Shown: positions 2,693 through 57,186 of the stretch, piece after piece | How the letters are laid out: each line of letters begins with the position of its first letter | How positions within the stretch are numbered: position 1 is the stretch's first letter | Assembly (NCBI RefSeq): GCF_001854805.1 | Contig: NZ_MBLO01000266.1 | Location: 292-64,291, forward strand | Source of the DNA: Pseudofrankia coriaricola | Lineage (GTDB): Bacteria; Actinomycetota; Actinomycetes; Frankiales; Frankiaceae | Direction: 5' to 3' | Length of the DNA stretch: 64,000 nucleotides | Notes under the pieces: generated by a model | What the model saw: only the letters and a program-made list of their open reading frames with translations | Told to the model about the DNA's origin: nothing | The model's database searches: none | Translations under genes and position numbers: made by a program

Positions 2693-2868
2693 TGCACTTC
2701 CAACCTCGCCGTTGCCCCGGCACCAGTACACGTCATGTCTGCCGCCCGCTGGGGCAGCCCGTCTCCGCGCGTTCGGCCAGGACCTTGCCCGTAGCGGCCA
2801 ACCTCCGACTTGGGATCGCCGCATCGGAGCTGTGCCAGGCTGACGGCATGAAGTGGGTGTGACATCCC

Positions 2869-3105
2869 CTCTTTCCTCCCCGGCCAGGCGCGTCGCCCTC
2901 CCTGAGGTCGGACTCGCGATGTATGCACGAGCCCATTTTGTATACAAGATGACGCCGACGCGCAAGGGGCGGACAGGCTCTTGAGCGGGCTCGCCGGTGA
3001 TCGTACCATGGTCTTATAGCTTATAAGGCTTTACCATTTGGCCGTCGAGGGGCACTCCTGCATGACGTGGCCGTTCGCGGTGGATCAGGGTCGGGGTGGC
3101 GTCGA
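2869..3105. repeat. Duplicated promoter cassette, copy A
   Basis: About 237 bp are nearly identical to 7269-7508 in the same orientation. Shared blocks include the TTCCTCCCCGGCCAGGCG stretch (an SD on the minus strand), TGTATGCA, TTGTATACAA, GACGCGCAAGGGGCGGACAG and a CTTATAAG block. In both copies the minus-strand genes start just left of the cassette. This copy abuts the stop of the GGDEF gene. Confidence 0.85.
2920..2950. promoter_or_regulatory. Paired operator TGTATGCA ... TTGTATACAA
   Basis: A perfect TTGTATACAA palindrome at 2938-2947 is preceded, 19 bp away, by the degenerate copy TGTATGCA at 2920-2927. It is one of the dispersed TGTATACA sites and lies upstream of the minus-strand P450-tail/VOC unit. 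The cognate GntR regulator is inferred, not shown. Confidence 0.6.
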
Positions 3106-5478
3106 TCACAGGTCGGCGAGGGGGCGGGCTTGGCCGTAGAGCGGGCCGGTGCCCAGGTCGCAGCCGGCGAGGGCGAGTTCGCGTGCCTGTGTGTGGTCGT
3201 TGATGCCGGTGGCCGTCACGATCAGCTCGAGGCGCGCGGCGGCGGCGAGGATGGTGTCGCGAACCTGGCGGATCTGGGCGCGGTCGGTGGCGCCGGTGTC
3301 GGTGATGGAGTGGTGCATCCTGATCATTCGGATGGGTAGGACGCGGCAGGCGGCGAACATGTCCGCATTCTCGCCGACTCCGTCGAGCGCGAGGGCTGCG
3401 CCGCGGTCGGTGAGAGGTAGTAGCGCGGGGACCGTCGCGGCCAGGTCCGCGCCGCCGCGGGTGCCGGCGAGCGTGAGGATCAGGGAGCATGGGCTGGGGC
3501 CCGGCAGCAGCGCGGCGATGTCGGTCAGCGGCGTGCGGTCGAGGATCGCGTCGAGGGGGATGGTGACGAGGACGGGCACGGGTGCGGAGCATCGCTCGGT
3601 GGTCGCGAGGTCGCCGCAGACCCGTTGGAGCGTGAGCTGGAGGAGCCCGTCGGCCAGCCGGGCTTCGTCGGCGAGCTGGCGTAGCTGTCCGGACGGGATC
3701 TCGCCGTGGCCTGGATGGCGCCAGCGTGGCTCGGCGTCCGCCGCGACGGTCCGCCCGTCCCGGAGGTGGACGACGGGCCGGTAGGCGACGTCCAAGGTGC
3801 CGGCGTCGTCCTCGCCGTGCAGCAGGCGGGTGAGGTCGTCGGACATCCGTGGCGCGGTGTCGATCATCGTGAGGTCGGGGCGGTAGACGACCAGCTCGCC
3901 TTTCCGTTGGCGCTTTGCCGCGTACATGGCGAGGTCGGCTTCGCGCTGTAGGGTTTCGGCGGCATCCGGGCCGCCGTCGCGGCTCGCGAGGACCAGCCCG
4001 AGGCTGGCGCCGACGCGATGGCGGTGTCCCGCCAGGGTGCAGGGTGCACGGATGGTGGCGGCGAGACGGCGCGAGAGTGACTCGGCCCCCGGGCCGTCGC
4101 GGCTGTTCTCGAAAATGACCGCGAACTCGTCACCTCCCAGCCTGGCGACGGTGTCCCCCGATCGGACGCCGTCCCGGAGCCGGCGGGCGGTGATCCGTAG
4201 CAGCTCGTCTCCGGCGGGGTGACCGAAGGTGTCGTTGACCTGTTTGAAATTGTCCAGATCGCAGAACAGCAGCGCGAAGGGGCGGTCGTCGCGCTGGGCG
4301 AGAGTGTGCCGCAGGCGGTCGGTGAAGAGCGCCCGGTTCGCGAGTCCCGTCAGTGGGTCGTGGGAGGCCTGGTAGTGCAGATCGCGCCGGCTCGCCTGGA
4401 CGGAGGCGAGCAGCCGGGCGTTGTCCCGCAATGTCAGCACCTGCCGGATCAGCACCACCACCAGCAGTCCGAGCAGACCGTCCCGCTCGACGCTGCCGAT
4501 GGGCGTGCCGGCGATCGTCTGGCCGACGGCCAGCGCGCCGACGGCCCCCAGCGCCACGTACGGCAGAACCGCGTGCATCCGCAGCGTCTGAGGACGGGTG
4601 TCGTCCAGGTCCGAGGGTCGCGCCGCCCGGATCGGCACGAGACCGGACAGGAAGATGAGCAGCCAGCCCACGACGAACCCGACGTCCGTGACCGGCACGG
4701 TTCCGCGTCCTCCCGCGGCGATGTTGAACATGGCGGCCGTGAGGGTCAACGTCAGCCCGGCCATGCCGGCCCCGAGCAGGCCGAGCGCGAGCCCTGATCG
4801 TGGCCGGCGGACGGTGCCCAGCAGCAGGACACCGACCAGGAGCAGGAGACTGCCGAGCGTCGCCACGATCGGGAGGGTGAGTGTCCGGATGTCGATGTGC
4901 GCGCTCCGCGCGATCGGTGTCAGCAGCACCGACCACAGGAGTGTGGCCACGGAGCCGACGACCGCCAGGCTGTCGAGAGCAACGATCGCGTACCAGTAAG
5001 AGCCGCTGTCGTCGGTCCGGCGAGCGTTGAGCGGGTCGGTGGGGAATGCCAGCACGCCGGCCAGCGCCAGCACGGCCGTCAGGACGAATCCCGCTGCCGA
5101 CGCCGGGAGCTGCGGGGGAAACGGCTCGCCGTGCCTGAGGCCGAGCTGGGCATACCACGCCGAGGCGGCCGCCAGCACCGCGGCCGCTGGCGCGATGATC
5201 AGACGCCAGCGGCGGTCGGCGCCCCGGGTCCGCCAGCCGGTCCAGGCCATGCAGACCGCGGCGGCCAGACAGCTGGCCGCGTTCGTCGAGCGGACGATCA
5301 ACGTGGCCGCCGTCGTGGGGACAGTCACGGCGCAGATCACCACGGCGAGGGTCAGGACGGCACACGCCACCGCCACCGACCACCACCGCAAGCCAGGGCC
5401 GCCGGTCATCGAACGCTTCCGCGGGTACATCCGCGACCCCGATCGGTCCGCTGTCACGGGTCGGATATCTTCCGACAC
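3106..5478 (-). CDS. Membrane-anchored diguanylate cyclase with degenerate EAL domain
   Basis: 790 residues, GTG start. Residues 30-345 contain about eight to ten hydrophobic segments. The GGDEF domain spans about 370-530, with DPLTGLANR, GGDEF at 448-452 and an inhibitory RxxD site (RSGD, 439-442) exactly five residues before it, so c-di-GMP synthesis with product inhibition is expected. The C-terminal EAL-like domain is altered: the EAL position reads AEP near 582, and the DDFGTGYSS region reads DGVGENADM. It is therefore probably not a working phosphodiesterase. It is not obviously linked to the catabolic genes. The last codons touch repeat copy A. Confidence 0.88.
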   Translation of the reverse strand: MSEDIRPVTADRSGSRMYPRKRSMTGGPGLRWWSVAVACAVLTLAVVICAVTVPTTAATLIVRSTNAASCLAAAVCMAWTGWRTRGADRRWRLIIAPAAAVLAAASAWYAQLGLRHGEPFPPQLPASAAGFVLTAVLALAGVLAFPTDPLNARRTDDSGSYWYAIVALDSLAVVGSVATLLWSVLLTPIARSAHIDIRTLTLPIVATLGSLLLLVGVLLLGTVRRPRSGLALGLLGAGMAGLTLTLTAAMFNIAAGGRGTVPVTDVGFVVGWLLIFLSGLVPIRAARPSDLDDTRPQTLRMHAVLPYVALGAVGALAVGQTIAGTPIGSVERDGLLGLLVVVLIRQVLTLRDNARLLASVQASRRDLHYQASHDPLTGLANRALFTDRLRHTLAQRDDRPFALLFCDLDNFKQVNDTFGHPAGDELLRITARRLRDGVRSGDTVARLGGDEFAVIFENSRDGPGAESLSRRLAATIRAPCTLAGHRHRVGASLGLVLASRDGGPDAAETLQREADLAMYAAKRQRKGELVVYRPDLTMIDTAPRMSDDLTRLLHGEDDAGTLDVAYRPVVHLRDGRTVAADAEPRWRHPGHGEIPSGQLRQLADEARLADGLLQLTLQRVCGDLATTERCSAPVPVLVTIPLDAILDRTPLTDIAALLPGPSPCSLILTLAGTRGGADLAATVPALLPLTDRGAALALDGVGENADMFAACRVLPIRMIRMHHSITDTGATDRAQIRQVRDTILAAAARLELIVTATGINDHTQARELALAGCDLGTGPLYGQARPLADL

Positions 5479-5677
5479 TCACAGTAAGTAGCCGCGCCCG
5501 GCCTGTTATAACCCGATGGGTCATCGACACCGACGCGACATCGTCGGCGAGGCGATCTGGCCGTCGGCGGCGAGCGCGTCCCGCGCGGCACGGGTACCCG
5601 ACGAGCGCCTCCGGGCACGCCCTCGCGGCTCGTCTGAGCCCGTCGCGGTCAAAGCCGCACGCGTTGAACGAACCGAC

Positions 5678-5890
5678 CTAGGAGATGTTGACGATGGAGC
5701 CGCCGCCGTTCTCGATCATCACGGGAATGGCCTTCTGCATGCAGAGCAGGACGCCGAAGAAGTTGACCTCCGTGTGGACGGCGTACTCCTCGCTGCTGAG
5801 GTAGTCGACGTCCCATTTGCGGCCGGCGACGGTCGCCGCGTTGTTCACCAGGACGTCGATGCGCCCGAACGTCGCCACGGTGGCGCGGGC
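5678..5890 (-). pseudogene. Short-chain dehydrogenase, central fragment
   Basis: The minus strand reads FGRIDVLVNNAATVAG and ends PVMIENGGGSIVNIS followed by a stop. This is the middle of a classical SDR, from the NNAG strand to just before the catalytic Ser. The Rossmann N-terminus and the YxxxK half are missing. It lies left of an operator pair at 5949-5975, its likely former promoter. Confidence 0.7.
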
Positions 5891-5948
5891 GGGCCCTCGT
5901 CGACGGCCGCATTCCGTCTCTGCCTGACGCGGATCACGCGCGGGTGCG

Positions 5949-5975
5949 TGTATACAATATCGTGATTCGTATACA
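5949..5975. promoter_or_regulatory. Paired operator TGTATACA / CGTATACA
   Basis: TGTATACA at 5949-5956 and CGTATACA at 5968-5975 are 19 bp apart, centre to centre, in an AT-rich patch. They lie between the SDR fragment (minus) and the broken MarR gene (plus). Same motif family as the other dispersed sites. Confidence 0.6.
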
Positions 5976-6131
5976 AACGTGGTAATCAAGCTCTTGACGG
6001 TGAAGTTACGGTAAGCGAGCATACGCTCGCTGTGCTTCACAAGAACTTGTGATCCGAGGGCGGCCGGTGCGCGGGGTGACTGGGCCACCGGGTGCCGGCC
6101 CGACGGGCCGCGGCGACCAGATCGGGGGTGC

Positions 6132-6490
6132 GTAACGGGAGGGGAGTTCGAACCGCGAGAGCACATCTCGTGGCTCATCAAGCAGGCCTTCCACTACACC
6201 CGGCGCGCCGCCGACGAGGCGATGCGCGCCCACGGCGTCACCTCTGCCCAGGGTGGCGTCCTGATCCGGCTCGCCCAACGCCCAGGGCTCTCGGCCGCCG
6301 ACCTTGCCCGCCTGATGTTCATCACGCCGCAGGCGGCCCAGCAGACGCTCACCGCGCTGGAAGGCCTGGGTCTCGTCGAGCGAAACGGGCGCGCTTGAGC
6401 CCTGACGCCCGATCTCCGTGGCCGAGGACCTGGACGATGTCGTTGACAACCTGCAGTCTGCCGCAGGCAAGTGGTCCCAGCGAGTTTTGA
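6132..6490 (+). pseudogene. MarR-family regulator, frameshifted and internally deleted
   Basis: Frame one reads EHISWLIKQAFHYTRRAADE, then SAQGGVLIRLAQRPGLSAAD and TPQAAQQTLTALEGLGLVER, a clear MarR winged helix. It stops at 6398 where the wing should begin. A second frame continues from about 6421 with AEDLDDVVDNLQSAAGKW, the usual C-terminal dimerisation helix. No good start codon is visible, since the frame opens after a stop at 6051. The gene cannot make a normal MarR protein. Confidence 0.7.
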
Positions 6491-6520
6491 AAGGTAAAAT
6501 TCATGTCGCGAGCCGCCGCG

Positions 6521-7264
6521 TTACGGGATGGCTCCGCCGTTGACGCCGAACAGTTGTCCTGTGATGTAGCTGGCTTCCTCGGAGCAAAGGTACAGGCAGG
6601 CGGCGGCGATGTCGTCGCCCGTACCCAGCCGGCCGACGGGGATGCGGCTGGCACCCCCGTCGCCCGTCGGATCGCCGATTTCGACGCGGGCCTGGCGGTA
6701 CATCGGGGTGTCGATCATGTGGGGTGCAATGGTGTTCGCCGTGATCCCCTGCCGTGCGTACTCAAAGGCGATCGCTCTTGTCAGCGTGATCACGCCGCCC
6801 TTGGACGCGGCGTAGTGCGCGTGGTTGGGGGTCATGATCTGGGCGGCCGATGACGTGATCGTGACGATGCGGCCCCAGTCGGCGGTGACCATGTCGGGGA
6901 TTGCCGCCTGTAAGCAGTGGAACGTGCCGGTCAGGTTCACCGCGAGGACACGGTGCCATGACTCGAGTGTGATCTCGGTGAAGGGATGAAACGGCGCGAC
7001 CGCGGCGGAGGTGACCATGACTTCGACGGGTCCGAACTCGGCGCGCACCTTTGCCAGCGCCTCGTCGACCGCGGCTCGATGGGAGACGTCTACGGCGCAC
7101 GCCATAGCTTTCGCGCCGCTTTCCTGTAGGCCTTCGGCGGCCTGATGGGCGAGGTCCCCATTCACGTCGAGGATCGCCACGCGGTGTCCGCGGCGGGCAA
7201 GGTGCTCGCTGATGGATAGTCCCATGCCCGAGGCGCCGCCGGTGACGGCTGCAACTCGGCTCAT
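6521..7264 (-). CDS. Short-chain dehydrogenase/reductase
   Basis: 247 residues, the normal classical-SDR length. The nucleotide motif is TGGASGMG at residues 8-15, the catalytic Ser lies in ITSSA near 138, and YAASK gives Tyr151/Lys155. The usual NNAG motif is replaced by TSAAVA. The tail ITGQLFGVNGGAIP is standard. The predicted role is NAD(P)-dependent oxidation or reduction of an alcohol or ketone in the catabolic set. The ATG lies directly beside repeat copy B, with AGGAAGAGG upstream, so it is probably under the TGTATACA operator. A fragment of a close paralogue lies at 57187-57360. Confidence 0.9.
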   Translation of the reverse strand: MSRVAAVTGGASGMGLSISEHLARRGHRVAILDVNGDLAHQAAEGLQESGAKAMACAVDVSHRAAVDEALAKVRAEFGPVEVMVTSAAVAPFHPFTEITLESWHRVLAVNLTGTFHCLQAAIPDMVTADWGRIVTITSSAAQIMTPNHAHYAASKGGVITLTRAIAFEYARQGITANTIAPHMIDTPMYRQARVEIGDPTGDGGASRIPVGRLGTGDDIAAACLYLCSEEASYITGQLFGVNGGAIP

Positions 7265-7268
7265 GGTA

Positions 7269-7508
7269 CCTCTTCCTCCCCGGCCAGGCGCATCGGCTCT
7301 CCCTGAGGTCGGACTCGTGATGTATGCAGGAACCTATCTTGTATACAAGATGACGCTGACGCGCAAGGGGCGGACAGGCTCTTGACCGGGCTCAGCGGTG
7401 ACTGTACCGTAGTCACATAACTTATAAGGATTCGCTCGTTCGGCCGTCGAGAGGCACACCTTGCGTGACCTGGCCGTTCGCGGTGGATCAGGGTCGGAGT
7501 GGCGTCGA
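7269..7508. repeat. Duplicated promoter cassette, copy B
   Basis: Direct repeat of 2869-3105 with scattered substitutions and small indels. It carries the same SD, operator pair and conserved CTTATAAGGnTT block, here placed in front of an intact SDR gene. Conservation of the whole 240 bp points to segmental duplication. Confidence 0.85.
7321..7351. promoter_or_regulatory. Operator pair with perfect 16-bp palindrome
   Basis: ATCTTGTATACAAGAT at 7336-7351 is a perfect palindrome and the longest version of the dispersed motif. TGTATGCA at 7321-7328 is a degenerate partner, 19 bp away. The site is 72 bp upstream of the minus-strand SDR start. Confidence 0.65.
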
Positions 7509-7623
7509 ACCGCGGTCGCGACGCGAGCCGGAGCACGGGAGGGGGCGGGCTCAGGATTCGGGAGGATAAGGCCGACGGGACAGCGCGGCGGCCCAGACGA
7601 GCGTGACGCGTGAGGCGGACGCG

Positions 7624-7700
7624 CATGAAGCCGGCGGTACTCGACGTGTGGGAAATTATCGATGCCGTTCGTGAGCGCATCATCCCCGGCGAGTTTCTGC
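7624..7700 (+). pseudogene. Possible GntR-regulator N-terminal stub
   Basis: An ATG at 7624 opens a peptide with DVWEIIDAVRERIIPGEFLL, which resembles the first helix of FCD-type GntR proteins (I-D-x-RERI-x-GE). It then runs into unrelated sequence, and no winged helix follows. The assignment is tentative because the match is short. Confidence 0.35.
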
Positions 7701-7746
7701 TGGCCGCTTCGTTCTCCATTCAAGCAACGCGAGAGGATCGCAAGCT

Positions 7747-8322
7747 GTGGGGACTTTCACCGAGTACAACAATCATTTTCTGAACCATGTCGAGCTGCTG
7801 CACCGCTCTGGCGAAGGTCAGCTCGCGGCCCTGTTGTTCGAGACGCTGGGTTGCACCGTCCTAGATGTCACGAAGGAATTCGGGGCGAGGTCGACGTACC
7901 TGGCTGTCTTTGCGGAGGCGAGCGAGCTCGATAGGCTCAACAACGTTCTGTACGTCTCCGAGATCGGCGAGTCGCAACTGCAGCTCGAGGACGTCCTCAG
8001 GCGCAGGATGCAGGCCGACGACGAGCTTCGCGTCGCGCTCGAGCAAAACGATCTGGTACGGAAGAAGCCTGGTCATGTCGCGCATTTCGGGCTGCGGTAT
8101 CCGGACCTCGACGAGCTAAAGACGGTGCTCGACCGTCTCGAACACAAGCTTCCCGCCGAACTCGCCGGTCGCGTGACGGTGTACCCACCCTTTCCGGTCG
8201 GGCTCCGCTCGCTCGGTACCGAGGTCCACCAGGCGTTCCTCTACACGGATGTCATCGGTCCGGGTTTTTACCCGTTCGGGCAGCTCATTGAACTCCAGGC
8301 GCAGCAACCGCTGAAGGATTAG
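7747..8322 (+). CDS. Uncharacterised VOC-like protein
   Basis: 191 residues with a GTG start, rather lower in GC than its neighbours. It contains HVAHFGLRYPDLDELKTVLD and ends GFYPFGQLIELQAQQ, features compatible with a single VOC/glyoxalase-fold domain, but the N-terminal half is not recognised. There is no signal peptide or membrane segment. It has no operon partner; broken genes lie on both sides. Function unknown. Confidence 0.55.
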   Translation: MGTFTEYNNHFLNHVELLHRSGEGQLAALLFETLGCTVLDVTKEFGARSTYLAVFAEASELDRLNNVLYVSEIGESQLQLEDVLRRRMQADDELRVALEQNDLVRKKPGHVAHFGLRYPDLDELKTVLDRLEHKLPAELAGRVTVYPPFPVGLRSLGTEVHQAFLYTDVIGPGFYPFGQLIELQAQQPLKD

Positions 8323-8820
8323 CGCCGCCAAGACCATCGACCTTGTCGCGGTGGCCGGCGACGCTCAGGCCCAGCTCTTCCGGGACTCGTCGCTGTGAAG
8401 GATCTGCCCGGTTAGGGTCTCGGCAGTCTGTTGGGTGAAACGGCCTGGACCTGCGTACCGACCGCACGTCGGTGCCGAGATGATCAAGCGGGCGCTTGAG
8501 GGGCCCTGATCTTCTGGCGGCGGTTCGCCTGAGTGTGGTGGGCGGGAGAGCGTCGGTCGGGCGTCAAGGCTCGAGCGCGGCATAGGACGGGTCGTTCCGG
8601 TCCTGGGATCCGGACACCGGCCGAGCGCGGCCAGCACCCGCCCCTCGGCCAGCACCGGTGGCTCCGCTGTGCGAGGCTGCCGAGGAAAGCCCCATCGCCG
8701 CCATCGGCGGGCGGTGCGGGCCGGAGCTCCCCGGCGTCCACCCCGGGGCGTGGCCGACCCCGATGCCGAGCAGAAACCGGTCACCGAGCGGCGGACAGCG
8801 ACGCGTACGACGCGGCCCTC
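8323..8820. other. Stretch without a recognisable gene
   Basis: Open frames exist on both strands but none resembles a known protein, and their composition looks like antisense or random high-GC sequence. A short plus-strand tail ending GAEMIKRALEGP just before 8510 could be the end of a lost gene but was not identified. Confidence 0.4.
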
Positions 8821-8830
8821 GGCCGGCGGG

Positions 8831-9000
8831 CGCATTGTCCTGTACTAGCTGGAAGCGCTCGGCTTCTGTGGCCGCGGTGAGTCGAGGCCGTTCGTTGAGG
8901 GTGGCAGGCGGATCGCCCGTGACGGTGACCTGCCGCTCAACACCTCTGGCGGACCAGCCGCTCCGGGTCATCAACCTGAAGGTCAAGGCGCGCTGCGTCG
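8831..9000 (+). pseudogene. Thiolase / lipid-transfer-type acetyl-CoA acetyltransferase fragment with amber stop
   Basis: The frame reads IVLY, then TAG at 8846-8848, then LEALGFCGRGESRPFVEGG and DGDLPLNTSGG. In intact thiolase-like proteins this segment is IVLYQLEALGFCGRGE and LP-NTSGG, so Q has become a stop (CAG to TAG). Upstream and downstream parts are scrambled. A related tail fragment lies at about 54985-55110. Confidence 0.7.
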
Positions 9001-9218
9001 AGGCTGGTGCTGGTGCCGTCGAACGCGGCGCGCAGGTCGCGCCCCGCGCCACAACGGTGACCGGTCCGAGGAGTTTGTCTGGCCGCAGCGCGTCGCGGGT
9101 GGTCGCCCGGCGCAGCGACCCCGGTCGGCGGGCGCCCGGCGCGCCCCCGAAGCGTTCATGGACAGCTGCCCTGGGTGGCGATCGGCTCGTCGTGGGGTAA
9201 CCGGACATCGCTCGCCAA

Positions 9219-9247
9219 TGTATACACTGACCCTGGTACTGTATACA
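9219..9247. promoter_or_regulatory. Operator pair, two exact TGTATACA
   Basis: TGTATACA at 9219-9226 and 9240-9247 are exactly 21 bp apart, the same phase as at 36696-36724. The pair precedes a GntR-tail fragment and a deleted CoxL gene on the plus strand. Confidence 0.65.
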
Positions 9248-9265
9248 AGGCTCGGTGGAGTGTAA

Positions 9266-9424
9266 GAGGCGAGCCCGGGCGATCCCGCTCGGGCGGCGAC
9301 AGCGGTGGCGGCCAACATCGACGCGACCTACGTCTCGCTGGGCTGGCGGCGTGTGGTCGTTGTGCGGTTCGAAGCCGTCAGTACGTCCGCGCGGGCACAG
9401 CGCAGACAGGAGGTCAACCGGTGA
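9266..9424 (+). pseudogene. GntR (FCD) regulator, C-terminal fragment
   Basis: The frame reads DPARAATAVAANIDATYVSL then GWRRVV and ends at a TGA at 9424. This matches the C-terminus of the intact GntR protein at 55247-55966 (ATAAVLANIDGAYVAFGWRR) almost residue for residue, so it is a remnant of a paralogue. The DNA-binding half is gone. Its stop overlaps the GTG of the next broken gene (GTGA), suggesting an old operon. Confidence 0.7.
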
Positions 9425-9960
9425 CGTTCGTCGGCGAGTGGGCGGCGAGGGTCGAGGACCGGCGGCTGTTGACGGGGCGGGGAAGGTTCGTCGACGACCT
9501 GGTCGCGATGGTCGTGGCCGAGAGCCGGTACATAGCGGAGGATGGCTGCGACCTGGCCGAGGTCGACTACGACCCGCTGCCGGCGGTGACCGGGTACGAC
9601 GCTGCCCTCGACAGCGATGCACCGGCCACCTGCGACGAGCTCGGCGACAACATTCTGGACGCGAGTCCGCCCATCACCCTGAGAGACGTCGGCGCCGCTT
9701 TCACGCAGGCAATGCCGGCATGGCAATCCCCTTGGCGCCACGTTCATGGACTACCTGCTTCCGACCGCTACCGAGATCCCAGACGTCGAAATCGAACACC
9801 TGCCCTCCGATAGCCTCGGCGACTTTGACTTCGACTTCCACGGCGTCGGCGAAGGCGGGGCACTCGCGACGGTGACCAACGCCGTCGCGGATGCGCTGTT
9901 GCCCCTGGGCGCCCGGGTCGACCAGCAACTACCCCAGCGACGATCCTCGCGCTGGCCGAC
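9421..9960 (+). pseudogene. CoxL/xanthine-dehydrogenase-type molybdenum hydroxylase large subunit, massively deleted
   Basis: It starts GTG with WAARVEDRRLLTGRGRFVDD, the hallmark N-terminus of CO-dehydrogenase-like large subunits. It jumps to AEVDYDPLPAVTGYDAAL and then, in a shifted frame from about 9723, to GNPLGATFMDYLLPTATEIP and GVGEGG plus TNAVADALLPLGARVD, the C-terminus. A normal subunit is about 780 residues; here under 200 codons remain, with the molybdopterin core lost. No small or medium subunit is nearby. Confidence 0.75.
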
Positions 9961-10141
9961 CTCACCTCCTCCCGACGTTCGCCCACCAGATGGCTGAACG
10001 GACAAGGCAGGCCAGGCGGAACCGGGTCAACGGGGACCGGGATTACTGCTCCGGTGACGAAGGACACCGGCCCGAGGGGAGAAGGCGGGAACCACCGCCT
10101 TCTCCGTCGCCTAGCCGGGGCGCTTCAAGGGCGTTGTAATG

Positions 10142-10237
10142 GCGACGACAACGGTCGACGTCGTCCGCGATGTACCCGTCCTCGTGTGCGGCAGTCGAGG
10201 GTCCGCGACCGATCGCGTCGGCCGCGCCGGACTCTAG
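10142..10237 (+). pseudogene. Suc/Fer-like protein, C-terminal fragment
   Basis: The frame reads TTTVDVVRDVPVLVCG and stops at 10237. The intact protein at 57374-58390 has TARIDVVRDVPVLVCGEPP at the same place. It is a short relic of a paralogue and confirms that the 8.8-10.3 kb debris derives from genes represented intact near the right end of the window. Confidence 0.6.
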
Positions 10238-10334
10238 CCTCTTATAGACAGTTGTGTAAGACGAGATCGCCATCCGCCAGGCAGGGTGTGTAGCTCGGCT
10301 GCCCGGCCAGATTCGATGTAAAGGACTGATGTGC

Positions 10335-11183
10335 ATGGACAAGCTCGACGGACGCGGCGCGGTGGTTGTCGGGGGTGGCAGCGGGATCGGGCGCGGGATC
10401 GCCTTGGGTCTCGCCGGTGAGGGGATGCGGGTCCTCGTCGCCGACATCGACGCCGAGAATGCCGGGGCGGTACGCGACGAGATCGCCCGTAGCGGTGGCG
10501 ACGCGCGTGCCGCACGCGTGGACGCGACCGATAGCGATTCGGTGGCGAAGCTCGCGACCGCGGCTGCGGATGATCTGGACCGCGTGCACGTGTTCGTGAA
10601 CACGGTCGGCGTCCTCACCGACGCCGCGGTCACGACCTCCAGCGAGCAGGTGTGGGCGTGGTTCGTCGAGTTTCACCTCATGGCGGCCGTGCGCATGGTC
10701 GAGGCGTTCCTGCCGCTGCTGCGCGCGCACGACGACGGGGCACACATCGTCCTCACGTCGTCGATGGCCGGTATGGTGGCGCTGCCAGCGGAGCAGACCG
10801 GCGGCATGAACACCGGCGTGTACACCGTGTTGAAGCACGCCGTCGTGGGGTATGGCGACATGCTGCGGCACGATCTGACGCCCGAGGGTATCGGGGTATC
10901 GGTGCTCTGCCCCGGGGCGGTGGCGACCAGCCTGGTCTCGACCACCGCCCGGCACCGCCCGGAGCGCTTCGGCGGGCCGATGTCCGACCCGATGGCGGGC
11001 CGCACGCTGCCGCCCGGCATGATGCCGCCTGGCATGATGCCGATCGAGGCTCTGGGGCCGATTGTCGTGCGGGGCATCCGGGCGAACCGCCCATACATCT
11101 TCACCCATCCCGAGATGCAGGACGTGGTGCGCGCCCGCCAGCAGCAAGTACTGGACGACTTTGAGTTTTCTGCGGAGACGTGA
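10335..11183 (+). CDS. Short-chain dehydrogenase/reductase with proline/methionine-rich insert
   Basis: 282 residues from the ATG at 10335, which has AAAGGA nine bases upstream; an ATG six bases earlier is also possible. The motifs are GGGSGIG at 13-19, the catalytic Ser in LTSSMAG near 142, and YTVLK giving Tyr163/Lys167. The C-terminal third carries a tandem PPGMMPPGMM before a helical tail. The nearest style is SDRs acting on bulky hydroxy compounds, but the substrate is unknown. The stop is followed by debris, so it is monocistronic. Confidence 0.88.
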   Translation: MDKLDGRGAVVVGGGSGIGRGIALGLAGEGMRVLVADIDAENAGAVRDEIARSGGDARAARVDATDSDSVAKLATAAADDLDRVHVFVNTVGVLTDAAVTTSSEQVWAWFVEFHLMAAVRMVEAFLPLLRAHDDGAHIVLTSSMAGMVALPAEQTGGMNTGVYTVLKHAVVGYGDMLRHDLTPEGIGVSVLCPGAVATSLVSTTARHRPERFGGPMSDPMAGRTLPPGMMPPGMMPIEALGPIVVRGIRANRPYIFTHPEMQDVVRARQQQVLDDFEFSAET

Positions 11184-11450
11184 GTCGCGTGGCAATGGTT
11201 CCCGCATCATTGGTTCGGATCGGGCGCACGGGTGTTCTGCATGACGTCAAAGGCGGTGCCGGTCTGGTCGACACGGACGAAGGTGTAGCAGAGGCTGGGC
11301 TTGCCGAAGCGGCTGAGGTCTGTGGTGCTGGGATGGCGGACGGGTGCGTCGAGGTCATCCGTCGCCGACGAAGCCACGCCGAGGATGGCATGCAGTGCGC
11401 CGGGTCCGACATCGATATCGGACCCGGCGGGACATCGGGTTGCCATCCCG
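11184..11450. other. Debris with an unidentified minus-strand tail
   Basis: Minus-strand codons from about 11370 down to a stop at 11207 read LSRFGKPSLCYTFVRVDQTG then FDVMQNTRAPDPNQ. This looks protein-like and may be the end of a lost gene, but I do not recognise the family. Confidence 0.3.
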
Positions 11451-11459
11451 ATGGGCCGA

Positions 11460-11647
11460 TCATGCGAGGTGACCGACGTGGCGGGGTGCGTCGTGTTCCT
11501 CATGTTGCAACTGTCGGCGTGTGTGAGCGGAAGGCCGTTGACCCCGACGGCGGTACCTGTGCCTCGTCTGGCTGGTTCAACCGGCCAGGCGACGGCTGGG
11601 CCAACTACGTGCCGTACGCCCTGCTGGACCGCCTTGAGGAGCGGTGA
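11460..11647 (+). pseudogene. Short-chain dehydrogenase, C-terminal fragment, frameshifted
   Basis: One frame reads DVAGCVVFLMLQLSACVSG (SDR pattern DVA-VVFLASDLSA-VSG). The next frame completes it with DPDGGTCASSGWFNRPGDGW and ends YALLDRLEER at a TGA at 11647. The stop is one base from the ferredoxin start, so an SDR-ferredoxin operon probably existed here. Confidence 0.55.
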
Positions 11648-11648
11648 C

Positions 11649-11969
11649 TTGAGCCGCCGAGTCGTCCACGTCGAAGGCAGCGGCATCCATCTCGACGCGG
11701 AGCCGGGCGAGACGATCATCGAGGCAGCGTGGCGCCTCGGCTACTACTGGCCGACCGTCTGCTGGGGCCAAGCCGAGTGCACAGCGTGCTACGTCAAGGT
11801 CATCGAGGGTGCGCACCAGCTCGGCCCCATCCCGCCTGACGAGCAGGACGCTCTCGACCACTGTTTGCCGCGCGCTGCCAAATATGGCCCAGGCGAGGCG
11901 CGCTTGGCGTGTCGCGCGGAAGTGCTCGGTGAGGTGACCGTGCAGAAGACCGGCGTACGGCCGAAGTGA
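11649..11969 (+). CDS. [2Fe-2S] ferredoxin
   Basis: 106 residues from a TTG start. The cluster ligands are Cys38, Cys44, Cys47 (C-x5-C-x2-C in CWGQAECTAC) and Cys88 (RLACRAE), the adrenodoxin/putidaredoxin-like pattern. The region GETIIEAAWRLGYYWPTVC is typical of ferredoxins serving P450s or Rieske oxygenases. A paralogue at 61814-62155 lies next to a Rieske gene, so electron delivery to the oxygenases of this island is the likely role. No FAD-type ferredoxin reductase is present in the window. Confidence 0.85.
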   Translation: MSRRVVHVEGSGIHLDAEPGETIIEAAWRLGYYWPTVCWGQAECTACYVKVIEGAHQLGPIPPDEQDALDHCLPRAAKYGPGEARLACRAEVLGEVTVQKTGVRPK

Positions 11970-12059
11970 CCCACGGTTCCTTGACGAGCCCCGCGGCCAC
12001 CACTCGTCACGGCACGCGGCCAGATCGGCCCGTCGCGCGTCAGGGGTAGCCCGGCGGAG

Positions 12060-12535
12060 CCGCTCCGTACCGCGATGGCGCGCGCCTCTCCTGGGAGGTC
12101 TACAACGTCATGGCGGAGGGCGGGTGGCTCGGCATCGCGATGCCCGAGGGGTTCGGCTGGGGAAGGTGTGGGATCACCGAGGCCGCAGTTCCTTCCCCAG
12201 GGCGGCGGCCGATCTGAACGTCGCGTTCGGCCTCACCGAGCCCGACGCCGGCACGGACACGTCACGCATCAGCACCCGGGCGGAGCCGGACGGGAAGGGC
12301 GGGTATGTCCTGGGGGGCCGCAAGGTCTGGACGTCCAAGGCGCTCGAGGCGCAGGTCGTGCTGCTGCTCGTTCGCACTGGCGGAGAGAGGTTTCAAGGGC
12401 TTGTCCTAGTGCTGGCGGACCTCGATCCCGATTACGTCAAGATCCGCCGATCCTCAAGATAGGCCGCAACGCAGTCGCCCCGTGCGAAGTCGCCTATGAC
12501 GATCTCCCCGAGTTGCGGCCGGGTCGGCTCAGTGC
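12060..12535 (+). pseudogene. Acyl-CoA dehydrogenase, frameshifted remnant
   Basis: The fragments are LSWEVYNVMAEGGWLGIAMP, then after a frameshift FGLTEPDAGTDTSRISTRAE and YVLGGRKVWTSKALEAQVVL. After a second shift comes KIGRNAVAPCEVAYDDLP. These are in the correct order for the N-terminal and middle domains of an acyl-CoA dehydrogenase; the C-terminal helical bundle is missing. It converges on the kinase gene. Confidence 0.75.
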
Positions 12536-13773
12536 TCGGAAGGCGCCGCCACGCCGAGCTCGGACGGCGACTGGGACCTCGATGGCGGTGTCACCTCATG
12601 CTGGGGCAGCTTCGCCATCGGCTTGGCGATGGTGGGGTCCTTGGCTGCCTCGATGATCAGCTGCTTGGTGCCGTGGTCGACCATCGCCGCGCTGAAGCGT
12701 GCCGCGTGGACCGTGTTGAAGGATTCCGTCTGCCAGTGCGCCTCGTTGATGAGGAAGACGTAGTAGCCGTAGGTCAGGTAGGCGGCGAAGTGGTGCATGG
12801 TCTCGTCCAGATCTGGGGGCTCGACGCCGTTGCGGCCCAGCTCGGCGAGATAGTGGCCCACCAGTGCCCTGTCCCAGCGCCGTCGGTCTGCGACGTCGAG
12901 CGAGCACGTGATCCAGTACGCGAGCTCCAGGTACGGCGGCTCCTTGCGCGGGGGCGCGTCGAAGAAGCCGGGGGTGCCGTCGGGCTCCTCGAAGACGTTG
13001 CCGAGGTGCATATCGCCGTGGACGATGCAGTTCGGCAGCACGTCGCCGAGGGCCGCGATGTAGTCCAACGCCAGCTTCGCCCACTCGAGGTCGTGGAACT
13101 CTTTGGAGCTCGCTGCACCTCGGGGCATGCCGACGAAGCGCTGGAAGATGTCCGGGTGGAGGTACCCCACCAGGTACATGTAGGTGCGGAACATCGCGGC
13201 GCCGTTGTTCGCGACCCCGACCCACCGGCCGTCGGGCTCGAACTGGGAGCTCGTGTCCCAACGAACGCCCGGCTCCAGTTCGGGGCTGTTCCAGGTGGCC
13301 GCGTGTAACTTGGCCAACGCGGACAACGTTTGCGCCACCTGGTCGTAACGCAGAGGTTTGAGCCCGTTGCCGAAGGTCACCCCACGCGGGACGAGATCCT
13401 CCATGATGATGATGGCCTGCTTGCGCTCGGCGTCGATGTCGGCGAAATAGCTCTTGGGCACGTTCAGCGGGAGTACCGGCCACACGTCGCGGTATGCCAG
13501 CGCTTCCATCGCGTACGTGCGGGCCCGGTCGCGGCTCCACGCCTCGAAGCCGCCCTTCAGGATGACGGTCTCGGGAACGCCGGCCTTGCGCCCCGCCTCG
13601 TCGACGTCGAGCCGGATCCGTACGACTGTCGTGAAGCCGTGCCGGACCGTGAGGATCTCGAAGTCCTTGACCGTGATGCCGGGGAAGCTCTTCGAAAGGG
13701 CGGTGGTCAGCCACGCCGCATCGATGTCCTCGATGTTCAGCGGAAGCTGGAACGTGGATTCGTCGAGCGTCAC
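12529..13773 (-). CDS. Aminoglycoside-phosphotransferase-fold small-molecule kinase
   Basis: 414 residues from the GTG at 13773, chosen because GGGGAGGA lies six bases upstream; a longer frame to 13821 would run over the operator side. The ATP-site Lys region is VILKGG near 73 and the hinge IIMEDL near 124. The catalytic loop VHGDMHLGNVF is at 251-261, and the metal Asp lies in GFFDAPP near 272 (FDA instead of DFQ/DFD). Related kinases phosphorylate hydroxyl groups of small molecules or ecdysteroids. It is divergent from a flavin monooxygenase with a shared TetR operator motif, so it may act on the same substrate or product. Confidence 0.8.
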   Translation of the reverse strand: MTLDESTFQLPLNIEDIDAAWLTTALSKSFPGITVKDFEILTVRHGFTTVVRIRLDVDEAGRKAGVPETVILKGGFEAWSRDRARTYAMEALAYRDVWPVLPLNVPKSYFADIDAERKQAIIIMEDLVPRGVTFGNGLKPLRYDQVAQTLSALAKLHAATWNSPELEPGVRWDTSSQFEPDGRWVGVANNGAAMFRTYMYLVGYLHPDIFQRFVGMPRGAASSKEFHDLEWAKLALDYIAALGDVLPNCIVHGDMHLGNVFEEPDGTPGFFDAPPRKEPPYLELAYWITCSLDVADRRRWDRALVGHYLAELGRNGVEPPDLDETMHHFAAYLTYGYYVFLINEAHWQTESFNTVHAARFSAAMVDHGTKQLIIEAAKDPTIAKPMAKLPQHEVTPPSRSQSPSELGVAAPSEH

Positions 13774-13823
13774 GCTCTGTGTCCTCCCCGATGTCGTCGC
13801 AGCGGGCTCCCAGCTGCGCAAAT

Positions 13824-13844
13824 GAAACGAGACGGTAGCGTTTC
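13824..13844. promoter_or_regulatory. TetR-type operator, copy 1
   Basis: A 21-bp imperfect palindrome with half sites GAAACG and CGTTTC around AGACGGTAG. Nineteen of 21 positions match the reverse complement of 14569-14589. It is 51 bp upstream of the kinase GTG; the TetR gene between the two copies is the natural binder. Confidence 0.7.
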
Positions 13845-13912
13845 AAACCTAGGTCGCCGTGGTCGCAGCGTCAAGGCGGCCCGCCTCACCCGCGTCGAGC
13901 CCCTGGAGCCCG

Positions 13913-14527
13913 CTAGGTGGCCTCCGAGCGACGATGTGCCCGGGCCGTCGCACCGTTCCCGCTGCCGGATCGCGACGCCACGCCGGCAAGCACGGTGTCG
14001 ACGACGGGCGCGATGTCGGCCCGCCGCACCCGGGACTGGCCGACGACGCGTCGGTAGATGAACGGCGACATCAGGAGGTCGGTGACCAGCTCGATGTCGA
14101 GCTCCGCCGGCAACTCACCCCGGCCGATGCCACGGCCGATCACCAACGCGTACGCCGAACGCTTTGTTCGGATCATCTCGCTCTGGAGCACCGCGAGCTC
14201 CGGGTCCCGGGCAGCTGCGTCGACGAATGAGGAGAAGACTCGGCCGCTGCCGGGATTGCTCAGGTAGTCGACGAGTTGCTCGAGCAGACCGATCAAGTCG
14301 CCGCGAACGGATCCAGTGTCAGGCTCGACGGACGGCCGCTGCAGGCTCCAGAGCGCGGCGTAGATCAGCTGGGCGCGCGACCCCCAGTGGCGGTAGATCG
14401 TCGCCTTGCTGACGCCGGACACGGCAGCGACCGCTTCCACGTTCAGGCCATCGACCCCCCGCTCGGCGATGAGGTCGACCGTGGCGGCCAGGACCGGGTC
14501 CTGCGGCGTGCGTTCACGCGGCGACAT
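13913..14527 (-). CDS. TetR/AcrR-family transcriptional regulator
   Basis: 204 residues. The HTH at about 10-57 reads AATVDLIAERGVDGLNVEAV then SGVSKATIYRHWGSRAQLI, with the usual TetR helix-turn-helix and KATIYRHW recognition helix. The C-terminal ligand/dimer domain reads LEQLVDYLSNPGSGRVFSSF. It sits between two copies of one palindrome, at 13824 and 14569, the second just upstream of its own ATG. Autorepression plus control of the kinase and the monooxygenase operon is therefore likely. The inducer is unknown. Confidence 0.9.
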   Translation of the reverse strand: MSPRERTPQDPVLAATVDLIAERGVDGLNVEAVAAVSGVSKATIYRHWGSRAQLIYAALWSLQRPSVEPDTGSVRGDLIGLLEQLVDYLSNPGSGRVFSSFVDAAARDPELAVLQSEMIRTKRSAYALVIGRGIGRGELPAELDIELVTDLLMSPFIYRRVVGQSRVRRADIAPVVDTVLAGVASRSGSGNGATARAHRRSEAT

Positions 14528-14568
14528 GGGCTCAGGCCTCGGAGGTGTGGGTTGTCAGGACCATGTGT

Positions 14569-14589
14569 GAGACGATACCGTCTCGTTTC
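14569..14589. promoter_or_regulatory. TetR-type operator, copy 2
   Basis: Reverse-complement twin of 13824-13844, reading GAGACGATACCGTC then TCGTTTC. It lies between the TetR gene (minus, 42 bp away) and the monooxygenase GTG (plus, 46 bp away), so one site can govern both directions. Confidence 0.7.
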
Positions 14590-14634
14590 ACGAGGATGTC
14601 GGCAGCGGGGCATTGGGCCAGTCGGGGAGGAATC

Positions 14635-15825
14635 GTGCCGCACGGGCAGCAGCGAGCGAACGAGTACGCGGATGTCCTGCAGGGCGTGCGCCGGGTGGCT
14701 GCGGAGGCGGCTCGGCGTGCCGCTGAGATCGACGAGATGCGATCGTTCCCACAGGACCTGTTTGATGAGTTGGAGGCCACGGGAGTATTCAAGTCGCTCA
14801 CCCCGAAGGCGTACGGCGGGCTCGAGCTGTCGCTCGGCCAGGCGAACCACCTCATTGTCGAAGGGGCGCGGGCCAACGGCTCCCTGGGTTGGCTGCTGAT
14901 GATCGGGCTGTCGCAGGGGATCGGTCTTGGGATGTTCCCCGAGAAGACGGTAGCCAAGCTGCTCGAGGAGTTCTCCGACCTGCGCACGCGAGGTGTCTTC
15001 GCTCCGAAGGGCACAGCCGTCCCGACCGACGGGGGCTACGTCGTGACGGGTCAGTGGCCCTTCGCCAGTGGCGGGCCCAACCCGCACTTCGTGGGCGGCA
15101 ACTGCATCGTCATGCGCGATGGCAAGCCCAGCATCCTGCCCGACGGTGCGCCGGAGCTGGTCATCGCCATGATGCCGGCAAGCGCAGTCGAGCCGCTCGA
15201 CACGTGGCACGTGCTCGGGATGCGGGGCAGCGACAGCCATGACTACGCGGCCAGGGAGGTCTTCGTCCCCGAAGAGATGACCATCAACATCGTCACCGCG
15301 GCGAGCTTCTTCGACACGCCGCCCGCCCGCCTGCCGATCCGGGTGGCGCTGGCCACCCAGCACTGCGCGGTCGCGCTCGGGCTCGCCCAGGGAGCGCTCG
15401 ACGAGCTCACCGAGCTGGCCAAGACGAAGAAGGCAGCCATGAACCCGAGCGCGGTCCTCGCGGCCGACCCGGTGTTCCGTCACACGCTCGGCGAGCAGAC
15501 GCTCCGCTTCACAGGCGTCATGGCGATGTTGGACCAGGTGACCGCGGAACTCGAACGGGCCGGAGCCGAGGAGCGCGAGTTCACGCCGGAGGAGACCTTG
15601 ATCGGGCGGACGATGGCGGCCTACATCACCGCCGAGTGCGTGAAGATCGTCGACGTTGCCTACACCTACGCGGGCAGCACGTCGGTCTACAACACGTCGT
15701 CATTGCAGAGACGCCTCCGCGACATCCACGTCGCGACGCAGCACGTCGCCGCCACCCCGGAGGGCTACCGGGTGCTCGGCGCGGCCCTCGTCGGCGAGAA
15801 GCTCTCGCCGACGGAGCTGTTCTGA
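14635..15825 (+). CDS. HsaA-like flavin-dependent monooxygenase (acyl-CoA dehydrogenase fold)
   Basis: 396 residues from the GTG at 14635, chosen because GGGGAGGA is just upstream; a longer frame would cover the operator. It starts ADVLQGVRRVAAEAARRAAE, has FPQDLFDELEATGVFKSLTP and YGGLELSLGQ, and ends SVYNTSSLQRRLRDIHVATQ. This is the group D flavoprotein monooxygenase/HsaA pattern rather than a true dehydrogenase, with no catalytic Glu motif. Such enzymes hydroxylate rings using FADH2 from a partner reductase; a HsaB/HpaC-like reductase is at 21424-21921. It heads an operon with LLM and cupin genes. Confidence 0.8.
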   Translation: MPHGQQRANEYADVLQGVRRVAAEAARRAAEIDEMRSFPQDLFDELEATGVFKSLTPKAYGGLELSLGQANHLIVEGARANGSLGWLLMIGLSQGIGLGMFPEKTVAKLLEEFSDLRTRGVFAPKGTAVPTDGGYVVTGQWPFASGGPNPHFVGGNCIVMRDGKPSILPDGAPELVIAMMPASAVEPLDTWHVLGMRGSDSHDYAAREVFVPEEMTINIVTAASFFDTPPARLPIRVALATQHCAVALGLAQGALDELTELAKTKKAAMNPSAVLAADPVFRHTLGEQTLRFTGVMAMLDQVTAELERAGAEEREFTPEETLIGRTMAAYITAECVKIVDVAYTYAGSTSVYNTSSLQRRLRDIHVATQHVAATPEGYRVLGAALVGEKLSPTELF

Positions 15826-32190: not shown

Positions 32191-32207
32191 CCTTCTCGGC
32201 TGTTGGT

Positions 32208-32233
32208 TGTGTACACCGCCAAAGTTGTATACA
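32208..32233. promoter_or_regulatory. Operator pair TGTGTACA / TGTATACA
   Basis: TGTGTACA at 32208-32215 and TGTATACA at 32226-32233, 18 bp apart. The next intact plus-strand gene is the aldehyde dehydrogenase, about 185 bp away, farther than at other sites. Confidence 0.55.
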
Positions 32234-32417
32234 CTGCTGCCCGGGTTGGTATCACAAACAAGGTGGTATCTGATGACCCGCCATCGGTTCGGACATCGGT
32301 CCGCCGAAGCGCCGCGGGCGGTGCCGGGCGCCTTGTTGGGATCAGAGCCAGTCTCCCTGTTTCGGAGTGTGGGAGGCTGGAGACAACGCCGCAGATCTGT
32401 TGGGAAAGGACGAGAAT

Positions 32418-36651: not shown

Positions 36652-36695
36652 GGCATCGCCTCCTTCGCCATCGAGATCCCCACCCTACCAACGGG

Positions 36696-36724
36696 TGTAT
36701 ACATCACCACCAGTCGTGTATACA
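36696..36724. promoter_or_regulatory. Operator pair, two exact TGTATACA
   Basis: TGTATACA at 36696-36703 and 36717-36724, exactly 21 bp apart. It is centred between the divergent sulfotransferase (minus) and amidohydrolase (plus) starts, 45 and 32 bp away, so it can control both. Confidence 0.7.
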
Positions 36725-36756
36725 CTCATCAACTGGCTCCTGAGAGGGGACGACCA

Positions 36757-48039: not shown

Positions 48040-49719
48040 GTGCCTGATTGGGAGTATGCCACGGATGTCGTAGTCGTCGGATCCGGTGGGGGGTTGTGCG
48101 GCGCCGTTACCGCGGCGGTGCACGGGCTCGAGACCCTTGTCATCGAGAAGGAGCCGCTCATCGGTGGGTCGACGGCGATGTCGGGCGGTGTGCTGTGGCT
48201 GCCGAACAACCCTCTGATGCGGGCCGAAGGCGTGCCTGATTCGTTCGATGAAGCCATGGCGTACTTCGACAGTGTCGTCGGCGAGGTGAGGCCGGCGTCG
48301 TCGAAGGAGCGCCGCGCCGCCTACATCAATGAAGGCGTCAACATGATCCGCTTCCTGCAGGACCTTGGCATGTCCTTCCGCAGGTGCGAGGGGTACAGCG
48401 ATTACTACGCCGAGATGCGTGGCGTCGTGGGCTATAGCTCGCGCGGCCGGTCCATCGAACCGACGGTCACCGACGGCAACGAGCTGGGCCCCTGGCTTGC
48501 GAAGCTGCGTCCCGGCATTGCGGCCTCGCTCGGGGTCGTCGTGTTCACCGGTGAGTCCGCCGCGCTTCAGACCATCAAGCGTTCGCCGAGGGCGGTGACG
48601 ACCGCCGCCAAGGTGGCGGCGCGGACGGCCGCGGGGAAGTTGAAGGGCGAGTCCCGGCTCGCGAACGGCGCTGCGCTCGTGGCTCAGGCACTGAAGATCG
48701 CCATCGAGCACGAGGTGTCGATCTGGACGGAGACCCCGCTGGTCGACCTCGTCGTCGAGAACGGCCGCGTCACTGGCGTAGTGGCCAAGCGGTGCGGCCG
48801 CGACATCCGCATCCGCGCCAACCGCGCTGTGTTGCTGAGCTCCGGTGGGTTTGCCCAAAGCGCCGAGATGCGCCAGCGGTACTCCATGCAGCCCAACTCC
48901 GGCGCGTGGACCGTGGCCAGCCCTGGCGACACGGGTGAGGTCATCGAGGCGGCGATCCAGTACGGGGCGGCGTCCGATCTGATGGACGACGCCTGGTGGA
49001 TTCCGGCCTCGGTCATGCCGGACGGGCGGCCGGCGCCGCACGTCGGCGAGCGGAGCAAGCCTGGCTCAATCATCGTCGACCAGACCGGTGACCGCTATTT
49101 CAACGAAGCGTTGTCGTACATGGAGGCGGGCCGCCAGCTGTACGCGCGGAATGAGTCGACTGGCGGGAAGGCCGTCCCGAGCTGGCTCATCATGGACGGC
49201 CGGAACCGCTCGCGTTACCTATTCTCGTTCCAGCCGAACACGCCCGACGAGTGGATCTCGAGTGGGTACATGAAGCGAGCGGATACGATCGAGGAGCTCG
49301 CACGGCAGTGCGGCATCGATCCGGTCCGGCTGTCCGCCACCGTCGATCGGTTCAACGGCTCCGCCCGCCAGGGCGTCGACCCCGACTTCCACCGGGGCGA
49401 GGGTGCATACGAGCGATACATGGGCGACGCTCTGCACAAGCCGAACCCAGCACTCGGTCCGGTCGAGAAGCCGCCGTTCCATGCCGTCGCGCTGTACCCC
49501 GGTGACGTGGGCACCAGTGGTGGCCTGCTGAGCGACGAGTTCGCACGCGTGCTGGACACCGAGCAGCGGCCCATAGCGGGTCTCTATGCCACGGGCAACT
49601 GCACGGCGACGGTCATGGGCCACGCCTATCCGGGTGCCGGCGCCAGCATCGCCGCCAGCTTCGTCTTCGCCTACATCGGGATGAAGCACGCCGCCCAGGT
49701 CGCGTCACGATCCCGGTGA
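48040..49719 (+). CDS. KstD-like FAD-dependent dehydrogenase
   Basis: 559 residues, GTG start. The FAD site is DVVVVGSGGGLCGAVTAAVH, followed by EKEPLIGGSTAMSGGVLWLP. The C-terminus has PIAGLYATGNCTATVMGHAY followed by PGAGASIAASFVFAYIG. The Tyr and Gly of YPGAG correspond to catalytic residues of 3-ketosteroid delta-1-dehydrogenase, and NEALSYMEAG covers another conserved Tyr. The fumarate reductase/KstD family fits; a 1,2-desaturation of a cyclic ketone is the best guess, but not necessarily of a steroid. Confidence 0.85.
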   Translation: MPDWEYATDVVVVGSGGGLCGAVTAAVHGLETLVIEKEPLIGGSTAMSGGVLWLPNNPLMRAEGVPDSFDEAMAYFDSVVGEVRPASSKERRAAYINEGVNMIRFLQDLGMSFRRCEGYSDYYAEMRGVVGYSSRGRSIEPTVTDGNELGPWLAKLRPGIAASLGVVVFTGESAALQTIKRSPRAVTTAAKVAARTAAGKLKGESRLANGAALVAQALKIAIEHEVSIWTETPLVDLVVENGRVTGVVAKRCGRDIRIRANRAVLLSSGGFAQSAEMRQRYSMQPNSGAWTVASPGDTGEVIEAAIQYGAASDLMDDAWWIPASVMPDGRPAPHVGERSKPGSIIVDQTGDRYFNEALSYMEAGRQLYARNESTGGKAVPSWLIMDGRNRSRYLFSFQPNTPDEWISSGYMKRADTIEELARQCGIDPVRLSATVDRFNGSARQGVDPDFHRGEGAYERYMGDALHKPNPALGPVEKPPFHAVALYPGDVGTSGGLLSDEFARVLDTEQRPIAGLYATGNCTATVMGHAYPGAGASIAASFVFAYIGMKHAAQVASRSR

Positions 49720-49736
49720 TGACGTACCGGCCAGGC

Positions 49737-55170: not shown

Positions 55171-55246
55171 CCAACGCACCTCACTAATGCCGCCGGCGAA
55201 CCTTATGTCGGGGGACGTGCGCCTCAGCGGCGCCGCCTCTCGGTCT

Positions 55247-57153: not shown

Positions 57154-57186
57154 CAGCGCTCCCGCACCGAGCCCGCGGGCATCACG

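Follow-up and report, generated by a model that had tools for sequence, protein, structure and literature searches.

Positions 9281 to 10192 of the stretch of Pseudofrankia coriaricola DNA analyzed here (64,000 nucleotides, the window) are very probably the deletion-scarred remnant of a GntR-CoxL-Suc/Fer operon within a decayed catabolic cluster of a large Frankiaceae genome. The operon comprises genes for a GntR-type regulator, the large subunit of a CoxL-type molybdo-hydroxylase, and a sucrase/ferredoxin-like (Suc/Fer) protein, and the core of the remnant can make none of these three proteins whole. The surrounding gene graveyard, window positions 8563-12470, contains pieces of eight or nine genes (Table 1), among which SnoaL-like, luciferase-like monooxygenase (LLM), thiolase, binding-protein, and acyl-CoA dehydrogenase fragments mark further truncations.

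The window corresponds to positions 292-64291 of contig C266 in G000, a draft genome of 11.2 Mb in 280 contigs (C53, C5, C269, and C271 are other contigs of it), and its G+C content is 61-71% per 2-kb step. The comparison set consisted of 35 family genomes, including G000, G004, G025, and G027. The last two belong to another genus of the family, and G027 is taken as Parafrankia soli; genes of its contig C245 match the locus of P. soli NRRL B-16219 at 99.7-100%.

Collinearity of the remnant with open operons in relatives

On contigs C158 of G025 and C226 of G027, GntR, CoxL, and Suc/Fer follow one another directly as open genes of a single strand, with open reading frames (ORFs) of 236, 777, and 336 amino acids (aa), respectively. 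Five segments of the remnant were aligned to the G025 operon (9281-9416 to 11590-11725, 9417-9501 to 11829-11913, 9484-9710 to 12124-12350, 9703-10021 to 13886-14211, and 10141-10192 to 15097-15148), all collinear in the same order and on the same strand with 72-86% DNA identity, and the comparison with G027 gave the same picture. The synteny comparison suggested in a preliminary description of this DNA therefore found the operon open, with the same genes, order, and strand, in both relatives. What spans 3559 bp in G025 (11590-15148) is reduced to 912 bp in the window. One of the CoxL deletions removed 228 bp in frame and is bounded by two copies of GTTCGTCGNCGA.

The GntR relic was most similar to the genes of G025 (86%) and G027 (85%), followed by G004 (79%), C53 (78%), and the GntR gene at window position 55247 (70%). 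Full-length CoxL of the operon type was present in 2 of the 35 genomes: G025, from which the query was taken, and G027 (96%). The G000 draft yielded no intact CoxL of this type; its six matches comprised three full-length or nearly full-length homologues (the best, full-length, at 44%, the others at 34% and 31%), two graveyard pieces, and one 44-residue piece on C53. Next to the latter is another GntR tail (72% over 238 bp), and G000 therefore carries two relics of the GntR-CoxL adjacency.

Upstream of the G027 operon, on the same strand, are an SDR gene of the type found at window position 6521, a gene for a 191-aa protein, a CoA-transferase gene, and a further gene. The SDR and 191-aa protein genes show 84% and 80% DNA identity to window positions 6519-7263 and 7718-8324, respectively; in the window the SDR gene has the opposite orientation to its neighbor, unlike in G027, and neither the CoA-transferase gene nor the next gene of the G027 order turned up from 8322 to 9281. 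Relics and open genes showed similar identity to G025 and G027: thiolase 84%, GntR 85-86%, SDR 6521 83-84%, the 191-aa protein gene 80% (G027), and SDR 10329 82%. The differences between the thiolase relic and the G004 gene numbered 3, 3, and 13 by codon position; small as these numbers are, the pattern suggests that most of the divergence was gathered while the gene was working, so that inactivation looks recent relative to divergence. For the GntR relic and G004 the corresponding, likewise small, numbers were 2, 9, and 10.

Paired palindromic sites and a candidate regulator

A perfect operator pair, TGTATACA-N13-TGTATACA, precedes the remnant. Sites matching TGTATACA with at most one mismatch occurred 17 times in the window versus 2.55 expected, a number reached in none of 100 shuffles. 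Paired palindromes of this type, spaced 18-21 bp, were located at 2919-2947, 5948-5977, 7320-7348, 9218-9248, 32207-32234, and 36695-36725, most of them at cluster-family promoters, and palindromic sites with a GTATAC core were found near the target promoters except in the stretch from C5 (L028).

Exact pairs, defined as two copies of TGTATACA with 8-22 bases between them, were found at 12 places in the 35 genomes, three each in G000, G004, G025, and G027, and the reversed control pattern occurred once, in G001. A close homologue of SDR 10329 (match at 1e-70 or better) was likewise confined to these four genomes, a coincidence with a chance of 1.9e-5 if the genomes were independent. Ten of the 12 places were inspected and all adjoin cluster-family genes; six of them are in the G000 and G004 stretches that had supplied the test genes, and the four in G025 and G027 are the independent cases.

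The GntR protein encoded on C53 matched PF00392 (3.6e-17) and PF07729 (6.6e-18), which is the FCD type, and the GntR protein of window positions 55247-55966 matched solved GntR-family chains. An FCD-type (VanR-like) GntR would be the protein binding the paired TGTATACA sites, a link drawn from the shared core and co-location. Literature searches on TGTATACA or TGTATAC with operator or GntR returned no title on this operator in Frankiaceae and led to Atu1419, and TTGTATACAA together with GntR gave nothing. Atu1419 is reported as a GntR repressor of a hydroxycinnamate pathway that is tetrameric, belongs to the FCD type (VanR group), and has folate as the effector, and its operator is ATGTATACAT (PMC7797058). 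The latter includes the entire TGTATACA core, and the Atu1419 system shares with the present case several sites per regulon and an FCD-type GntR in a catabolic cluster. In contrast, the Atu1419 palindromes are given as 190 bp apart (109 bp with a degenerate partner), compared to 18-27 bp from start to start here. The paired operator is a short tag that among the 35 genomes picked only carriers of the cluster family; it points to the regulator and could help find the substrate of the cluster.

Density of gene fragments

Fragments were counted as tblastn pieces covering less than half of a homologue and lying outside any intact-like match; only the fetched loci supplied queries, and the counts refer to the gene families of those loci. 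Raw counts were 16 in the window, with 7 of these within 5401-12600, and in other G000 stretches 7 (C53, 39.6 kb), 3 (L028), 1 (L066), and 2 (L067). One was counted in G004 (40 kb) and none in L030. The G025 and G027 stretches gave 7 (L073) and 4 (L074) and none in each of L072, L075, L076, and L077 (for the last two, queries from L030, the same locus, were omitted). The detector returned none in the reversed window and none in five shuffles of 5401-12600. Broken SDR, isochorismatase, and TauD pieces were observed at positions 1450-8188 of L073 (G027 contig C226), and broken TauD and 191-aa protein pieces at positions 8000-8333 of L074 (G025 contig C158).

Origin of the graveyard

The preliminary description had named relics of thiolase, GntR, CoxL, Suc/Fer, SDR, and acyl-CoA dehydrogenase with almost no intact gene among them. 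All six were recovered near the places assigned to them and the fragments are dense, but the ferredoxin at 11649-11969 looks whole, and SDR 10329-11183, taken for a relic, is open (284 aa) and conserved, with a ratio of nonsynonymous to synonymous substitution rates (dN/dS) of 0.285 versus the G004 copy. The proposed matches to a second site were reproduced: the GntR relic aligned to the gene starting at 55247 (70.4% over 81 bp), the Suc/Fer relic to that starting at 57374 (82.7% over 52 bp), and the SDR tail 57184-57338 to 6521-7264 (76.1% over 155 bp).

From these matches it had been concluded that there were probably two related catabolic clusters, each decayed where the other survived. In that view, sister clusters at 5-12 kb (A) and 53-62 kb (B) would have arisen by duplication, each losing what the other kept. 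The states are indeed opposite for the SDR of the 6521 type (open in A, a tail in B) and for GntR and Suc/Fer (tails in A, open in B), and the B copy of Suc/Fer, 82% identical to G027, could be a moved partner. Strict reciprocity is not observed because both sites have thiolase only as a relic (the gene is open on C53) and CoxL is open at neither, no intact operon-type CoxL having been found in G000. The pairwise identities of GntR and the dehydrogenase already appear to point away from A/B sister genes: the B copy of GntR is a distant paralogue (67-70%), and other loci lie nearer than the A/B counterpart to the GntR relic and to the acyl-CoA dehydrogenase relic, the latter being closest to C269. 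The Suc/Fer relic is about equally near to G025 (84.6% over the same 52 bp), and the SDR tail 57184-57338 is about equally near to 6521-7264 and C53. Homologous clusters also exist on C53 and C5, relatives of the G004 cluster genes are dispersed over C53, C5, and several window places, and G000 holds at least four related clusters. The decay of related catabolic clusters is thus upheld, two clusters are too simple a picture, and mutual loss between A and B is improbable.

Shuffling by mobile elements or recombination, in which the fragments arrived separately and never formed one local operon, would agree with the 92-96% identity of the pieces at 5660-6387 to C53. It would also agree with the two copies of a 240-bp promoter module (2868-3105 and 7269-7508) and with the LLM, binding-protein, and dehydrogenase pieces, which have no counterpart in the G025 and G027 stretches; Frankia genomes are described as plastic via insertion sequences (PMC2770080). 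However, a six-frame Pfam scan of 5480-12600 gave no transposase family, and the GntR-CoxL-Suc/Fer core is collinear with the open operon, so that shuffling is rather unlikely. Misassembly or indels breaking whole genes would fit a draft of 280 contigs with an estimated contamination of 3.87%, but such error is very unlikely, as several genes are down to 17-45 codons, truncations are many, the order of the remnants follows the open operon, and another GntR/CoxL relic is on a different contig (C53).

Several observations weigh against the operon-remnant reading or limit its reach. The second CoxL junction examined showed no clear repeat, and the differences between the GntR relic and G025 numbered 0, 8, and 7 by codon position, unlike those of thiolase. 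The LLM, binding-protein, ferredoxin, and acyl-CoA dehydrogenase pieces had no match in the G025 and G027 stretches, and the graveyard therefore mixes several sources. The four genomes with the shared operator are related by descent and do not count as independent; the C5 cluster stretch is without any operator site, and single sites are present at window positions 35033, 39545, 40655, 54850, and 56273, so the operator does not mark every cluster copy. The raw fragment counts are rough and include artefacts. Among the 16 in the window, the fragment at 1-558 belongs to a gene truncated by the end of the window, the one at 6122-6388 depends on an ORF that probably does not represent a real gene, and a few more may come from whole genes of which a portion matches poorly. 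At least two of the seven C53 fragments stem from nongene queries or overlong ORFs, one of them spanning the entire C53 ferredoxin, and one of the three L028 fragments sits at the stretch end. The fragments in the Parafrankia-type clusters of L073 and L074, even with one of each at a contig end, indicate that decay is not special to G000.

For the favored explanation, a local operon collapsing by deletion, redundancy among several related clusters would have relaxed selection, gene bodies would have been lost stepwise through deletions, one or more of which fell between short direct repeats, and the promoter modules and some useful genes would have been retained, two SDR genes, the ferredoxin, and the 191-aa protein gene being open. 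These survivors probably still serve a dispersed pathway; Rieske, FAD-dependent, CoA-transferase, BKACE, TauD, and aldehyde dehydrogenase genes are present in G004 or the window. As judged from its position, the operator pair 9219-9247 may now drive the SDR gene 1.1 kb downstream. In a speculative and unlikely extension, the control sites would be part of the reason why the graveyard persists: operator modules (2919/2938, 5948/5967, 7320/7339, and 9218/9239) would outlive the genes served, be copied separately from them, and either rewire survivors such as the SDR gene at 10329 or titrate the GntR repressor, with the dispersed clusters responding jointly as a result.

Deletional bias has a role in the shrinkage of bacterial pseudogenes. 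The inactivated genes here are reduced to short pieces, as in bacterial pseudogene decay in general (e.g., PMC2916853). What differs in the present case is that the remnants of one operon stand ordered beside open genes, with deletions that can be mapped against open relatives. The operon is open in G025 and G027 and collapsed in the window, and the contigs of the two relatives carry other broken genes. The decay is ordinary in kind and unusually legible, as open copies in relatives allow steps of the operon's erasure to be followed and the neighboring open genes serve as an internal control.

Other features of the region

The features are listed in Table 1. The fragments differ in divergence, those at 5.66-6.39 kb being 92-96% identical to C53 and those elsewhere about 72-86% identical to their nearest relatives. 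The pieces 5660-5885 and 6009-6387 keep their C53 order, with the intervening 2.9 kb reduced to 0.12 kb. The dN/dS values of open genes were 0.19-0.40; the value for the ferredoxin versus L028 was discarded because of a doubtful frame there. At the protein level, SDR 10329 is 81% identical to G004 and 75-76% identical to G027 and G025, and a collection scan with it matched one locus, that of Parafrankia soli. Megablast of 7500-15000 against a plasmid collection, a search that does not reach distant plasmid relatives, gave no match. In the acyl-CoA dehydrogenase fragment, the middle domain matched at 1.8e-14 and the N-domain match at 12068-12187 was weak (E 0.07), with 12087-12184 being 75.5% identical to C269. 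The label VOC for the 191-aa protein is unsupported, as Pfam assigned no family.

Table 1. Features of the window in order of position (DNA identities; SDR types named by window position)
Feature	Position	Strand	Support
Promoter module copy, degenerate operator pair 2919 + 2938	2868-3105		87% to 7269-7508
SDR, internal fragment	5660-5885	-	96% to C53:18098-18323
Remnant of divergent MarR (+)/DUF35 (-) promoter region	5950-6387		6009-6387 92% to C53:14836-15208; operator pair 5948/5967
SDR, open, 247 aa	6521-7264	-	dN/dS 0.185 vs C53 copy; 83-84% to G025/G027
Promoter module with operator pair 7320/7339	7269-7508		Upstream of SDR 6521
191-aa protein, open, no Pfam match	7747-8322	+	Homologue adjoins SDR in G027:C226, also on C53
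SnoaL-like protein, C-terminal tail	8563-8611	-	Homologue alignment
LLM, internal fragment	8619-8831	-	70-76% to copies in genus
Thiolase fragment, residues 297-341 of 390, one internal stop	8834-8968	+	E 1.5e-16 to homologue; Pfam Thiolase_C_1 3.3e-9
Perfect operator pair	9219-9247		Motif search
GntR, C-terminal 36 codons (9281-9388) and 3' flank	9281-9416	+	Matches G025:C158:11590-11725
CoxL-type large subunit, three pieces, two internal deletions	9417-10021	+	Homologue alignment
SDR, C-terminal tail, tentative	9989-10122	-	9989-10104 69% to window 49718-49838
Suc/Fer, C-terminal tail	10141-10192	+	82.7% over 52 bp to window 57458-57509
SDR, open, 284 aa	10329-11183	+	adh_short 1.7e-34; homologue-supported start 10335
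Peripla_BP_6 substrate-binding protein, C-terminal tail	11202-11334	-	Homologue alignment
2Fe-2S ferredoxin, probably whole	11649-11969	+	Fer2 1.9e-9; TTG start read by eye
Acyl-CoA dehydrogenase, N and middle domains in different frames, C terminus gone	12068-12470	+	Nearest DNA C269:82953-83470
DUF35 fragment fused to thiolase tail, second thiolase relic	54882-55176	+	Homologue alignment
GntR, open, diverged paralogue	55247-55966	-	67-70% to other cluster GntRs
SDR, C-terminal tail relic, 6521 type	57175-57358	-	Homologue alignment
Suc/Fer-like protein, open	57374-58486	-	82% to G027:C226

An LLM gene on contig C271 (L062, 5598-6161) lacks its middle; its DNA identity to the G001 copy is 94-96%. 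Translocation of this middle into the graveyard as the LLM piece 8619-8831 was considered and rejected by DNA identity, since that piece is only 72-74% identical to the G001 copy.

A near-perfect 32-bp palindrome consisting of two 16-nucleotide arms with no spacer (94%) is located at 11398-11429, between the SDR and ferredoxin genes. A stretch of 54 bp at 32277-32330, upstream of the aldehyde dehydrogenase gene at 32367, is 93% identical to the SDR interior 10946-10999 on the opposite strand, and a similar piece was found upstream of the homologous G004 gene (L025, 7120-7206); judging by this resemblance, it may be an old conserved SDR fragment.

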